Positions 47,194 to 52,916 of a stretch of DNA of 64,000 nucleotides are shown here, in pieces. The stretch lies in the NCBI GenBank assembly GCA_031267575.1, contig JAIRYN010000058.1:1-64000 (forward strand), given 5' to 3'. Every line of letters begins with the position of its first letter. Position 1 is the stretch's first letter. A program made the position numbers and the translations under genes. The notes beneath the pieces were generated by a model. It ran no database searches. It saw only the letters and a list, made by a program, of their open reading frames with translations, and had not been told where the DNA came from. Origin of the DNA: Synergistaceae bacterium (GTDB lineage: Bacteria > Synergistota > Synergistia > Synergistales > Aminobacteriaceae).

Positions 47194-48336
47194 TTACGCG
47201 ATTTTTCCCGCTACGCTATCTCCCACAGCTTGACAAAGAGCGCTGCCCCCCAGTTCGATAGGTTTCGCGGAGGCGTCTGATTCCTCCAAATAAGAGCTTA
47301 CCGCCGCGTCGATGGCCTTTGCTCCCGCGTTTTCCCCAATGTGGTCGAGCATCATCACGGCACATAAAATCGCCGCCAAGGGGTTGGCTTTGCCCGTTCC
47401 CATGATGTCTGGCGCGGAACCGTGTACGGGCTCGAACATCGAAAGCTTTTCCCCGATATTGCCTCCAGCGCCGAGGCCTAATCCTCCCGTCAATCCCGAC
47501 AAGAGGTCGCTGACGATGTCGCCGAAAAGATTCGGACACAAAATGACGCCGTGTCCCCAAGGTTTTCTCGCCAGTTGATAGCACAGCGCGTCCACGTTTC
47601 GTATCGTCAGAGCGATTTCGGGATACTCTGCCGCGACGCGCCTCGTCTCCTCGTCCAGGAACCCGTACAGGAAGGGGACGGCGTTGGCTTTACTGGCAAG
47701 CACGACCTCTTTTTCGCCCCGTTGTTTCGCCAGATCGAAAGCATAGCGCGTCACCCGTTCCACACCGGGGCGTGTGAGAACCCCGATTTGCAGCGCCGCC
47801 GGGCAATCGGGGTCGAAGGCGGCATCCAGCCGCCCGGAAAGTTTATAGGGTCCACGTTCTGCTTCGAAGGGGATTTTCATACCGCCGCCTCCTTCGCCTC
47901 CTTGGGTGACGGCGCCCACCCCCATATAAAAATCCTCCGTGTTTTCGCGCACCACGATGGAATCGATATGAGTTCCTTCTGGAAGGGGGACGGGACAGGG
48001 AACGTTTTTGTAGCTTCGCGCCGGACGCAAGTTGATGTACTGGTCGAAGTGGAAGCGGAGTTTCAACAATATCCCGCGCTCTAAAATCCCCGGTTTCACA
48101 GAGGGATCACCCACCGCGCCCAGCATCATCGCGTCGCAAAGCCCCATTTCCGTCAGCGCGGATTCGGGGAGAATCTCATTTGTCCGGTTGTAATGACCCG
48201 CGCCGAAGGGATAGCTCACCCACTGCACCTTGAAATCATGTCGCGCGCCCGCCGCCTCCACAACCTTGATAGCCTCGGCCGTAACTTCCGGTCCGATCCC
48301 ATCTCCGGGCAGGAGCGCGATTTTATAGTTTTTCAT
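47194..48336 (-). CDS. leuB: 3-isopropylmalate dehydrogenase-family beta-decarboxylating dehydrogenase
   Basis: A 380-residue NAD-dependent decarboxylating dehydrogenase. Visible parts are ALLPGDGIGPEVTAEAIKVV, the substrate loop RENTEDFYMGVGAV, ILCPNLFGDIVSDLLSGLTG and FEPVHGSAPDIMGTGKANP. The R-E-N-T-E-D loop resembles isocitrate/homoisocitrate/tartrate dehydrogenases more than standard LeuB (R-E-L-T-G-G), so substrate specificity is not certain. Its place after leuC-leuD and a leader peptide rich in leucine codons favours 3-isopropylmalate. It follows leuD after 20 bases. ATG 48336 is after a GGAG. Confidence 0.8.
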   Translation of the reverse strand: MKNYKIALLPGDGIGPEVTAEAIKVVEAAGARHDFKVQWVSYPFGAGHYNRTNEILPESALTEMGLCDAMMLGAVGDPSVKPGILERGILLKLRFHFDQYINLRPARSYKNVPCPVPLPEGTHIDSIVVRENTEDFYMGVGAVTQGGEGGGGMKIPFEAERGPYKLSGRLDAAFDPDCPAALQIGVLTRPGVERVTRYAFDLAKQRGEKEVVLASKANAVPFLYGFLDEETRRVAAEYPEIALTIRNVDALCYQLARKPWGHGVILCPNLFGDIVSDLLSGLTGGLGLGAGGNIGEKLSMFEPVHGSAPDIMGTGKANPLAAILCAVMMLDHIGENAGAKAIDAAVSSYLEESDASAKPIELGGSALCQAVGDSVAGKIA

Positions 48337-48356: not shown

Positions 48357-48872
48357 CTAGCTTTTCGTTTCTATCTGCTCTATCTGCCGACGCGCCCACG
48401 AGACCAACCCTCCTGAGTCAATCAGGTCTCGCAGAAACACGGGGAAGGGGTTGGCCGTCCAAGTGTTGCCGTTGGTTTTATCGGTAACTGTGCCTTTTTC
48501 CAAGTCGACCTCGACCACGTCGTCCTTTTGAATGCCATTCACGGCCTCGGGACATTCGAGGATCGGAAGACCCACATTGATCGCGTTGCGGAAGAAAATT
48601 CGCGCGTAAGATATCGCTACAATACAAGACACTCCCGCCCCCGCGATGGCGATGGGAGCGTGCTCGCGACTCGAACCGCAGCCGAAGTTATTCCCCGCTA
48701 CGATGATGTCGCCCCGCTGTACGTTTTTCGCGAAGGTTTCGTCGATGTCTTCCATGCAGTGGGGCGCCAGTTCCTCCGGCAAGCTGGTGGAAAGGTAGCG
48801 CGCCGGAATGATGACGTCCGTGTCCACGTTATCGCCGTATTTCCAAACCTTGCCCGTCAAGATTGTCTTCAC
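48357..48872 (-). CDS. leuD: 3-isopropylmalate dehydratase small subunit
   Basis: A 171-residue swivel-domain subunit of the LeuCD/homoaconitase type. Motifs are KYGDNVDTDVIIPARYL near the N-terminus and GNNFGCGSSREHAP (about residue 60). It forms the active site together with LeuC for isomerisation of 2- to 3-isopropylmalate. Length fits the archaeal/clostridial short LeuD. It is separated from leuC by about 1.1 kb of a decayed IS607 element, which may weaken transcription of leuD and leuB unless there is an internal promoter. Confidence 0.92.
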   Translation of the reverse strand: MKTILTGKVWKYGDNVDTDVIIPARYLSTSLPEELAPHCMEDIDETFAKNVQRGDIIVAGNNFGCGSSREHAPIAIAGAGVSCIVAISYARIFFRNAINVGLPILECPEAVNGIQKDDVVEVDLEKGTVTDKTNGNTWTANPFPVFLRDLIDSGGLVSWARRQIEQIETKS

Positions 48873-49009
48873 TGGATATTCGCTGCTACTGAAAACCTAC
48901 ACAAATGTGTAATAGCCCAGATTTTTCCTTCTTCATCCTTTCCTCTTTCGCCAAAGCTACTCAAGTTTGTACGGAAGTCCAAAGGCTTAAATTCCCGGTA
49001 GCCCACTGT

Positions 49010-49970: not shown

Positions 49971-51227
49971 TCAGACTTCTCTGGGATCCGCGACACGACC
50001 GAGGATGGCGCTGGCCGCCGCCACCAGAGGCCCAGCCAGGATGACTTCGCTTTTCGGGCTGCCCATGCGGCCGACGAAGTTGCGGTTACTGGTGGAAACG
50101 CAGCGTTCCCCCGCGGCCAAAATGCCCATGTAGCCGCCCAGGCAGGGTCCGCAGGTGGGGGTGCAAACCACCGCTCCGGACTCGGTCAGGTCTCGAATGT
50201 ATCCCCTGTCCAAAGAGGCGTTGTAGACCTCGTAGGACGCGGGGATAACGATCAAGCGCACCCGGTCGTGAACTTTGCGTCCTTTCAGAATGCGTGCCGC
50301 CTGTTCGATATCGGAAATTCGTCCGTTGGTGCAGGATCCGATGAAGACCTGGTCGATTTCCATCTCTTTGCATTCTTTGGCCGCCTTCACATTCTCCGGC
50401 AAGTGGGGGAGGGCCACCACGGGCTCTAACTTGTCCAAGTCGATGGAGATCGTCTTCGCGTAAACAGCGTCTTTGTCGGGGAAAATGGGGGTATACGCGC
50501 GTTTTGCCCGCGCGCTCACGTAGGTCAGAGCCGTTTCGTCGGGCACGAAGAGCCCCGTCTTTCCGCCTGCCTCAATCGCCATGTTCGCCATCGTCATGCG
50601 CCCGTCCAGAGGTAAATGGGACAGCGCGTTCCCGTGAAATTCGAGCGCCATGTAACGCGCCCCTTCGACTCCCAGTTTGCCGATGACGGACAGGATCAGG
50701 TCCTTGCCGCCAAGCCAAGGGGAGAGGTTTCCCACGAAATCGACGCGACAGGTCTCCGGGACTCGCAGCCACGTGCTCCCCAACGCCCAAGCCGCCGCCA
50801 GATCCGTGGAACCGACCCCCGTGGCCAGTGCCCCCAACGCGCCCCCCGTGCAGGTGTGGCTATCGGCTCCCAAGATGATCTCGCCGGGCAGAATGTATCC
50901 CTGTTCGGGCAAAAAAGCGTGCTCCACTCCCACCCGACCCACTTCCCAGAAGAGTAGATTCTGCTTGCGGGCAAATTCCCTGCTGATCTTCGACTGCTCC
51001 GCCGACGCGATGTCCTTGTTCGGCGTGAAGTGGTCCAGCAAGACCGCGCAGCGTTCCGCGTCGAAAACCTTTTCGGCCCCCATGTTGCCCAATTCTCGGA
51101 TCGCGGGCGGCGCTGTAATATCGTTAGCGAAGGCAAAGTCCACCTTCACCCCGCAAATGTTACCCGCCGCCACAGGGTCTTTGCTGTGCGCGGCAATGAT
51201 GGCCTCCGCCATAGTAAAAGCGCTCAT
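49971..51227 (-). CDS. leuC: 3-isopropylmalate dehydratase large subunit
   Basis: A 418-residue aconitase-fold protein of the short LeuC/HacA class. It has the 4Fe-4S ligands in ADSHTCTGGALGA, GSCTNGRISD and TPTCGPCLGGYMG. The C-terminus has SNRNFVGRMGSP. ATG 51227 is nine bases after GGGAGG; a TTG two codons upstream is too close. It isomerises 2-isopropylmalate with LeuD. Upstream are a terminator and a leader peptide with four consecutive leucine codons, so attenuation by leucine supply is likely. leuA is not in the window. Confidence 0.92.
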   Translation of the reverse strand: MSAFTMAEAIIAAHSKDPVAAGNICGVKVDFAFANDITAPPAIRELGNMGAEKVFDAERCAVLLDHFTPNKDIASAEQSKISREFARKQNLLFWEVGRVGVEHAFLPEQGYILPGEIILGADSHTCTGGALGALATGVGSTDLAAAWALGSTWLRVPETCRVDFVGNLSPWLGGKDLILSVIGKLGVEGARYMALEFHGNALSHLPLDGRMTMANMAIEAGGKTGLFVPDETALTYVSARAKRAYTPIFPDKDAVYAKTISIDLDKLEPVVALPHLPENVKAAKECKEMEIDQVFIGSCTNGRISDIEQAARILKGRKVHDRVRLIVIPASYEVYNASLDRGYIRDLTESGAVVCTPTCGPCLGGYMGILAAGERCVSTSNRNFVGRMGSPKSEVILAGPLVAAASAILGRVADPREV

Positions 51228-51267: not shown

Positions 51268-51296
51268 AAAAAAGGGATCCGAACTCGCCGGATCCC
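51268..51296 (-). terminator. Intrinsic terminator of the leu attenuator
   Basis: Arms GGGATCCG and CGGATCCC with a seven-base loop, followed on the minus strand by six T's. It lies between the leucine-rich leader frame and leuC, and not at the metK end (metK stops at 51510, more than 200 bases before). This is the position of an attenuator terminator. Confidence 0.75.
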
Positions 51297-51325
51297 TCTC
51301 ATTTCGGTTTCGCTTTTCGGCTCTG

Positions 51326-51439
51326 CTAAACGCCAGAAAACGCCGACCCAAAGAAAAGGGAATCCGCGCGCACACAAAATCCAAGGAGGAGAAGACCGAA
51401 ACGCGATTTCTCGAAATTCAACTTGTTCCGCGTCAACAC
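51326..51439 (-). CDS. leuL: leu operon leader peptide with four consecutive leucine codons
   Basis: A 37-residue frame starting GTG 51439, seven bases after AAGGGGG, and ending TAG 51326. It reads MLTRNKLNFEKSRFG, then LLLL encoded CTT-CTC-CTC-CTT, then GFCVRADSLF and on to the stop. It lies 30 bases before the intrinsic terminator upstream of leuC. The layout equals the leader-peptide attenuation known for enterobacterial leu operons, whose leader also has four leucine codons. When charged leucine tRNA is scarce, the ribosome would stall at these codons and prevent terminator formation. The pairing alternatives were not computed; a TCGGC/GCCGA pair (51341-51345 with 51318-51322) is one possible antiterminator part. 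Confidence 0.72.
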   Translation of the reverse strand: MLTRNKLNFEKSRFGLLLLGFCVRADSLFFGSAFSGV

Positions 51440-51509
51440 ATTTATTCCCCCTTTTCTCGTTTTTCCAGCGTAAAAAGTTCTTTGATTCTAGAGCGAAGCG
51501 GTAAAGCTG

Positions 51510-52715
51510 TCAAGCACCCGCGGCTTTTTTCAGCGTCTCAGCGCGGTCCGTCTTTTCCCAGCCGGGTAGGGGAGTGATGTCGATGCGTCCCATGTGTCCA
51601 TAAGCGGCCAAAGCGCGATACTGAGGTTTTCTCAGGTCCAGGTCGCGAATACTGGCGGCGGGGCGGAAATCGAAGTGTTTGCGTAGAAGCTCCGCGATCT
51701 TATCGTCAGAGATTTTTCCCGTTCCGAAAGTGTTTACGTTCAGAGAGACCGGTTCCGCCACGCCGATAGCATAGGCCACCTGGACCTGGCACTGGTCGGC
51801 GATCCCCGCGGCCACGATGTTCTTAGTGGCGTAACGCGCCATATAGGCTCCGCTGCGGTCTACCTTAGTGGGATCTTTGCCGGAGAACGCCCCGCCGCCG
51901 TGAGGCACCCAGCCGCCATAAGTGTCTACAATAATCTTGCGTCCCGTCAAGCCGGTATCGGCCATGGGGCCGCCTTTCACGAAGCGTCCTGTAGGATTTA
52001 CCAGAATGCGCGTGTTGCCGTCAATCAAGTGCGTCGGAACGATGGGCGTAATGACGTGCTCAATGATGTCAGCGCGAATTTCTTTGAGGGTGGCCTCGGG
52101 GTGATGCTGGGACGAGATCACGATGGTATCGGCGCGCACCACCTTGCCTCCCTCGTATTGCAAGGAGACTTGGGTTTTGCCGTCCGGGCGCAGGTAAGAA
52201 ATCAGCCCGTCCCGCCGTACCTTGGTCAACTGCCGAGCGAGATTGTGGGCCAGAGCGATGGGCATGGGCATGTATTCTTCCGTCTCGTTGCAGGCATAGC
52301 CGAACATCATGCCTTGGTCTCCCGCTCCGATTTTTGCGATGTCCTCCTCGGTGATCGTTTTATCCCTCACTTCGAGAGCGTTGTTCACGCCCAGAGCAAT
52401 GTCGCCCGACTGTTCATCAATGGCGGTGAGCACCGCGCAGGTTTCTCCGTCAAAACCGTATTTCGCGCGGGTATAGCCGATTTCCTTCACAATCTCGCGG
52501 GCCAGTTTTGGAATGTCTACGTAGGTTTTTGTCGTAATTTCCCCCGCTACCATCACCATACCCGTGGTGCAAAGCGTCTCACAGGCCACTCGTCCGTTGG
52601 GGTCGTCTTTCAAGATCGCGTCTAAGATGCCGTCGGATATCTGATCCGCCACCTTGTCAGGGTGTCCCTCCGTAACGGACTCCGAGGAGAAAATGAATTT
52701 TTCTGCCGTTGCCAT
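51510..52715 (-). CDS. metK: S-adenosylmethionine synthetase
   Basis: A 401-residue methionine adenosyltransferase making SAM from methionine and ATP. Motifs are [16 protein letters not shown] near the N-terminus, [31 protein letters not shown] and [19 protein letters not shown] 52715 follows AGGAG; TTG 52733 overlaps the ribosome site. Directly upstream is a SAM-I riboswitch, so SAM represses it. leuC lies downstream but with its own leader, so metK is probably a separate unit. Confidence 0.95.
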
Positions 52716-52754
52716 ACTATCAACTCCTATCAAATGTCGAAAATCGAAAACCCA

Positions 52755-52800: not shown

Positions 52801-52916
52801 TATTCTCTTCCTCTCATCATCCAGCCCACATAGGCTGCTGGTATTGGCACCTGATACACTTCCAGGTTGCCGGGCTTCATCGGGCCAGTCCCTCCACCTC
52901 TCTCGATAAGAGTATT
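52801..52916 (-). promoter_or_regulatory. SAM-I (S-box) riboswitch controlling metK
   Basis: Conserved elements in order: TCTTATCGAGAGAGGTGGAG, GGACTGGCCCGATGAAGCCC, GGCAACC, GGTGCCAATACCAGCAG, GATGAGAG. These match the S-box consensus through P1-P4. A terminator follows. The arrangement gives premature termination when SAM is plentiful. Confidence 0.93.

Follow-up and report, generated by a model that had tools for sequence, protein, structure and literature searches.

In a 64,000-nucleotide stretch of the genome of a Synergistaceae bacterium (assembly GCA_031267575.1, contig JAIRYN010000058.1; hereafter the window), a conserved leader element lies between metK and leuC. We conclude, with a probability of roughly 0.88, that this element is a transcription attenuator of the ribosome-mediated type, responsive to charged tRNA-Leu, which governs leuC (together with leuDB, if these are cotranscribed), and that a paralogous copy controls leuA. 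Window coordinates are given on the forward strand; the element and leuC are read on the minus strand, as are all window features below unless marked otherwise. A sequence-only reading of the window had described a 37-codon GTG frame with its ribosome site, the codons CTT-CTC-CTC-CTT and a terminator with six T residues, followed by leuC, and every one of these parts is present on the minus strand.

The open reading frame (ORF) of the leader peptide (MLTRNKLNFEKSRFGLLLLGFCVRADSLFFGSAFSGV; 51439-51326) runs for 37 codons from the GTG start to a TAG stop. Its ribosome site, AAAAGGGGG, is strong and lies 7 nucleotides (nt) ahead of the GTG; the Shine–Dalgarno region, AAAAGGGGGA, occupies 51446-51455. 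The run of four leucine codons is at 51394-51383. Leucine accounts for 9.5% of codons in nine genes of the window, which gives an expectation of about 0.003 runs of four per 37-codon ORF, so four consecutive leucine codons are unlikely to have arisen by chance. An intrinsic terminator (GGGATCCG/CGGATCCC; 51296-51268), evident from the sequence and from folds, begins 29 nt past the leader stop codon and has a perfect 8-bp stem, a 7-nt loop and six T residues. The element also has a promoter that the sequence-only reading did not mention: TTGACA-17-TAGAAT (51513-51485) matches the consensus at 11 of 12 positions and is the sole such match in the window, where 0.02 are expected. Because its −35 box overlaps the stop codon of metK, the leader unit could be transcribed independently of metK. 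As a single sequence the leader does not fold with unusual stability (z of −1.0), and the case for the element therefore rests on its conservation.

We searched 83 genomes of the same family at the DNA level and then applied a covariance model built from 11 sequences (R1) to 183 genomes from the order and 188 from the phylum. Together, these searches recovered 12 loci with the leucine leader, spread over 11 genomes and seven genera, every one of them in the family of the host. At all 12 loci the element stands before leuA, usually with leuC next, or before leuC. In several related genera leuA directly precedes leuC and the pair lies behind a single leader. The two genes are apart in the host genome and each has its own leader, the second of which stands before leuA on another contig (G000:C35) and is 82% identical to the window copy over 95 nt. 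No R1 match was found in the 80 leuC neighbourhoods listed, nearly all of which come from other phyla. Several matches were set aside: those of the DNA search in G010 and G088 fall within coding regions unrelated to the element, weak R1 matches in G145 and G110 come without a leader, and a plus-strand R1 match at 51289-51366 reflects the palindromic nature of the element itself.

A Shine–Dalgarno-preceded start codon in frame with at least three leucine codons occurs at all 12 loci (one scan gave 11; the twelfth is the window copy, in which the in-frame GTG overlaps an ATG). The comparison of homologous leaders, a check set beforehand, thus shows the frame and its leucine codons retained throughout the seven genera. 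The number of leucine codons varies between loci from three upward, and in one genome (G003) the run is longer and interrupted (GLLLLGLLLLGLC). When three leucine codons were compared across 11 loci, every change was between CTC and CTT and hence synonymous; changes further downstream show no third-position bias. The hydrophobic stretch LLLLGLC is kept across genera and the N-terminal part of the peptide is not conserved. At its 3′ end, the ORF is conserved as DNA despite two reading frames and different stop codons, and the stop codon falls at all 12 loci within a 10-nt interval between the RNA segments C and A′ described below. This pattern points to an RNA-level constraint on where the ribosome leaves, and a peptide-level function for the 3′ part of the leader ORF is unlikely. 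At 11 of the 12 loci the element comes with a promoter that has a spacing of 17 and agrees with the consensus at 10 or more of 12 positions.

A second check set by the sequence-only reading was whether folding shows alternative pairing between the leader frame and the terminator; such pairing recurs, with covariation, in all sequences tested. Segment B (CGGATTCCCTTTTC; 51353-51366), which follows the leucine codons, is identified by folds and covariation as the 5′ strand of an antiterminator, and its partner B′ is the 5′ arm of the terminator, the 3′ arm of which we call T′. Within this helix, the upper antiterminator stem joins segment C (CGTTTTC, GCGCTTTT; 51336-51342), in which 4 of 10 pairs have changes on both sides, to C′ (GAAAAGCG, AAAAAGCG; 51311-51318), located from the antiterminator alignment. 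All 11 aligned sequences adopt the same long antiterminator, with B:B′ enclosing C:C′, once A and T′ are omitted. On a MAFFT alignment, 93.3% of the cells in this structure are paired, compared with 38–63% in slid controls, and seven pairs have changed on both sides (3.0 ± 1.3 in shuffles, only 1 of 500 of which reached as high).

The competing form combines the terminator with two local helices and is 89% paired. Segment A (GGATTTTGT, GGACTTTGC; 51374-51382), directly after the leucine codons, pairs with A′ (GCAGAGCC, GCAAAGTC; 51319-51326), which shares the final base of the stop codon (consensus helix 88.5% paired). Segment D (GGGTCGGCG, GGATCGGCG; 51341-51349) pairs locally with B when the terminating form is adopted; this helix is 98.8% paired, and half of its pairs are invariant. 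The terminator helix itself is found in all homologues (87% paired). The Shine–Dalgarno region is a further predicted partner of B in 8 of 12 leaders, which led us to reject it as a universal third partner.

From these parts we infer how the switch would operate. Transcription would begin at the leader's own promoter and the leader ORF would be translated. If charged tRNA-Leu is scarce, the ribosome would stall in the leucine codons and cover A, leaving A′ without its partner; this would keep B and C available to B′ and C′, so that the long antiterminator would form and RNA polymerase would read into leuC. If Leu-tRNA is plentiful, the ribosome would instead reach the stop codon, between C and A′, and be released, after which A:A′ and B:D (or the Shine–Dalgarno pairing with B) would compete with the antiterminator and allow B′ to fold into the terminator. 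Stalling itself, its timing, the direction of the response and its effect on leuC are all predicted from the layout and the conserved pairings.

Some observations weigh against this scheme. The protector form, A:A′ plus B:D, is less convincing than the antiterminator, with seven pairs changed on both sides compared with 5.7 in shuffles. Under equilibrium folding, RNA that ends at B′ is dominated by the antiterminator in nearly every state, and once the RNA is full-length the terminator usually prevails, with A masked or unmasked; partition-function runs on naked, stalled and at-stop states, with rough ribosome footprints, did not separate terminator from antiterminator. As equilibrium folding fails to reproduce the switch, the mechanism must depend on co-transcriptional timing. 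Finally, an ATG that opens a two-codon frame overlaps the in-frame GTG of the window copy (ATGTGTTGA; the start region at 51437-51445 reads AATAAATGTGTTGA), which is unlike the relatives and makes the start less certain than in them. Judged by this overlap, the window leader may be translated more weakly than its homologues.

Other explanations of a conserved RNA at this position have to be considered. A metabolite-binding riboswitch for leucine or a related ligand, built on an antiterminator/terminator platform with an incidental ORF, would also appear as a conserved structured RNA before biosynthesis genes, and would account for base conservation in segments C, D and A that goes beyond what the peptide requires. 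We regard this as improbable, because the Shine–Dalgarno sequence, start and at least three leucine codons are in frame at 12 of 12 loci, the leucine codons change only synonymously, and the blocks of conservation coincide with the run of codons and with the hairpin arms of the alternative structures; moreover, no match to any known aptamer was seen, and a similar element before aromatic genes has phenylalanine and tyrosine codons near the same place. Less probable again is a translational device such as the LEU element of Actinobacteria, in which the leucine codon run pairs with a Shine–Dalgarno box and the position of the ribosome sets the start of translation rather than termination. Pairing of leucine codons with the leuA Shine–Dalgarno sequence has been described for Actinobacteria (PMC1262725), CTCCTC-type runs are complementary to GGAGG, and the Shine–Dalgarno region of the leader pairs with B in many predictions. 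However, CTC leucine codons are complementary to any Shine–Dalgarno sequence, which makes the complementarity weak evidence, and a terminator stem and a conserved antiterminator lie between the codon run and leuA or leuC.

The conserved hydrophobic LLLLGLC, which resembles a signal or lipoprotein motif, might instead mark the gene of a small secreted or membrane protein with its own terminator. This is very hard to reconcile with an N-terminal part that is not conserved, a C-terminal frame that differs from genus to genus although the DNA is preserved, a terminator arm that pairs with the ORF itself, and linkage that is always to leuA or leuC. The idea of a chance ORF next to an ordinary metK terminator draws on the position of the terminator 3′ of metK and on the ease with which such ORFs arise, but it is refuted by the homologues: the element is conserved at 12 loci, most of which have other upstream genes, and a promoter lies between the upstream gene and the leader. 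We therefore retain ribosome-mediated attenuation as by far the most probable account of the element.

That leucine and branched-chain genes are subject to leader-peptide attenuation is textbook knowledge for enterobacteria, in which leuL combines a leader peptide containing leucine codons with a terminator and a competing antiterminator before the leucine genes. The Synergistota element has the same arrangement. It differs in that the 5′ strand of its antiterminator lies inside the ORF, downstream of the leucine codons, its codons are CTC and CTT, and it precedes leuC as well as leuA. The sequence-only reading, which equated the layout with that of leuL, was right as far as layout goes; sequence homology was not found, the Rfam Leu_leader model giving no match to the leader at either the gathering threshold or E ≤ 10. 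At gathering and relaxed thresholds, the only Rfam match at the leader site was to Phe_leader (RF01859, the Escherichia coli pheA/pheS type), with 14.2 bits against a gathering score of 55, which is chance level and shows no homology.

The same reading had treated a leader-peptide attenuator outside the proteobacteria as unusual; the attenuator is there, but such leaders are already known, and the Synergistota case adds to a known kind. Leader peptides and a LEU element with alternative RNA structures were described in Actinobacteria (Seliverstov et al. 2005, PMC1262725); by its description the LEU element is a pseudoknot with leucine-codon:Shine–Dalgarno pairing, whereas the element described here is an intrinsic terminator with an antiterminator. 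In Staphylococcus aureus, a leucine-rich attenuator peptide of ilv-leu controls branched-chain amino-acid synthesis together with CodY (PMC5794164), a system that, by description, is like ours in having a leucine-rich leader peptide and differs in phylum. Comparative genomics has likewise identified leader-peptide attenuators in his operons of Firmicutes, again with different codons (His) and in another phylum, and assigns HisR rather than attenuators to Synergistetes (PMC9413887). A genome-wide screen for structured RNAs in one Synergistetes genome, that of Thermovirga lienii, mentions neither leuA nor leader peptides in its main text (PMC6429828). We found no report of leucine leader-peptide attenuation in Synergistota in a literature search that covered few subscription papers.

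The sequence-only reading had taken the host for a Synergistota-type anaerobe, correctly: the host falls in the order of the named Synergistaceae bacterium RGIG3411 (L070), in which the same contigs came up with identical scores, and MetK of the window is 77% identical to that of this bacterium, within the range of the host's own family. It had also noted that T-box control would be more familiar in such a host and that no T-box is present. This holds for the window, in which the T-box model (RF00230) has no covariance-model match, including near leuC. Elsewhere, T-box matches occur in 37 of the 83 same-family genomes, eight of them over the cut-off, and the host genome itself has T-box-like RNAs at G000:C26:60802-61006 (83.5 bits) and G000:C1:35437-35728 (73.7 bits; gathering score 93). 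T-boxes and leader-peptide attenuators coexist in this lineage.

R1 also matched similar elements before aromatic genes. One of these, in the host genome (G000:C47:36320-36483, plus strand; L190, L204), is an attenuator with a Tyr/Phe-rich leader, MRYELAIYYKSFYYYTIFSFISMGPDSRRICACRGPA (SFYYYTIFSF), before a prephenate dehydrogenase gene. At E < 1e-6 a second model, R2, matched more than 50 loci (L197-L246), which are spread over two families of the order, with two or more in many genomes. Ten genomes from named records, including one of Synergistaceae, gave no R2 match; this set contains no known positive and so shows little. Nearly all of the aromatic-type leaders that were read have a Shine–Dalgarno-led ORF with an FSF core, often with tyrosine ahead of it, and the principle is the same as in the E. 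coli Phe leader. They also keep a serine codon, TCC, that a phenylalanine sensor alone would not require. The genes downstream, most of them for aromatic amino acids, include those for 3-deoxy-D-arabino-heptulosonate-7-phosphate (DAHP) synthase, aroB, aroA, chorismate mutase/prephenate dehydratase and prephenate dehydrogenase, as well as phenylacetate-CoA ligases, a major facilitator superfamily transporter and a protein of the Glu/Leu/Phe/Val dehydrogenase family. In the host genome, one copy (G000:C40:13809-13974; L239) stands before a GmrSD-type restriction gene, a context unfit for an amino-acid sensor.

The similarity between leucine and aromatic elements is not limited to the terminator (mean z of 2.7 over 96 pairs, relative to dinucleotide shuffles). 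They share the core TTCTCC, which is read as Phe-Ser-Phe (TTC TCC TTT) in more than 40 aromatic leaders and as Leu-Leu (CTT CTC C) in the majority of the leucine leaders. It is conceivable, though we think it doubtful, that attenuators across the order are of one common descent and that a shift of reading frame altered which amino acid they sense while the B/D/C/C′/B′/terminator skeleton was kept.

The genes around the leader agree with a role in leucine synthesis, as the sequence-only reading had held for the neighbouring dehydratase and dehydrogenase. The putative regulated gene, leuC (49971-51227, with its ATG at 51227), encodes the large subunit of 3-isopropylmalate dehydratase, leuD (48357-48872) the small subunit and leuB (47194-48336) 3-isopropylmalate dehydrogenase. 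All three assignments fit NCBIfam, with LeuC and LeuD a little under the strict leu equivalog cut-offs: LeuC is above the cut-off of NF001614 and scores 579 bits with TIGR02083 (cut-off 611), LeuD scores 241 bits with TIGR02084 (cut-off 246), and the top match of LeuB is 3-isopropylmalate dehydrogenase, under the cut-off. An ORF of the resolvase family (Pfam PF00239; 49425-49730) lies between leuC and leuD, and a RAGATH-18 RNA (48925-48985) lies just before leuD; the two are possibly a mobile-element remnant that splits leuC from leuDB. On the other side of the leader, metK (51510-52733) is preceded by an ordinary S-adenosylmethionine riboswitch (52811-52912, 87.8 bits).

With this element, Synergistota join the phyla in which leucine synthesis is under leader-peptide attenuation, and a single lineage is seen to employ both T-boxes and classical attenuators. 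For the window, the leader supports the leucine role of leuC, leuD and leuB, whose family scores are ambiguous. The phenylalanine and tyrosine relatives suggest that attenuation is widely used in the amino-acid-fermenting anaerobes of this order, and leucine and Phe/Tyr leaders together form a natural series for how a leader changes the amino acid that it senses.
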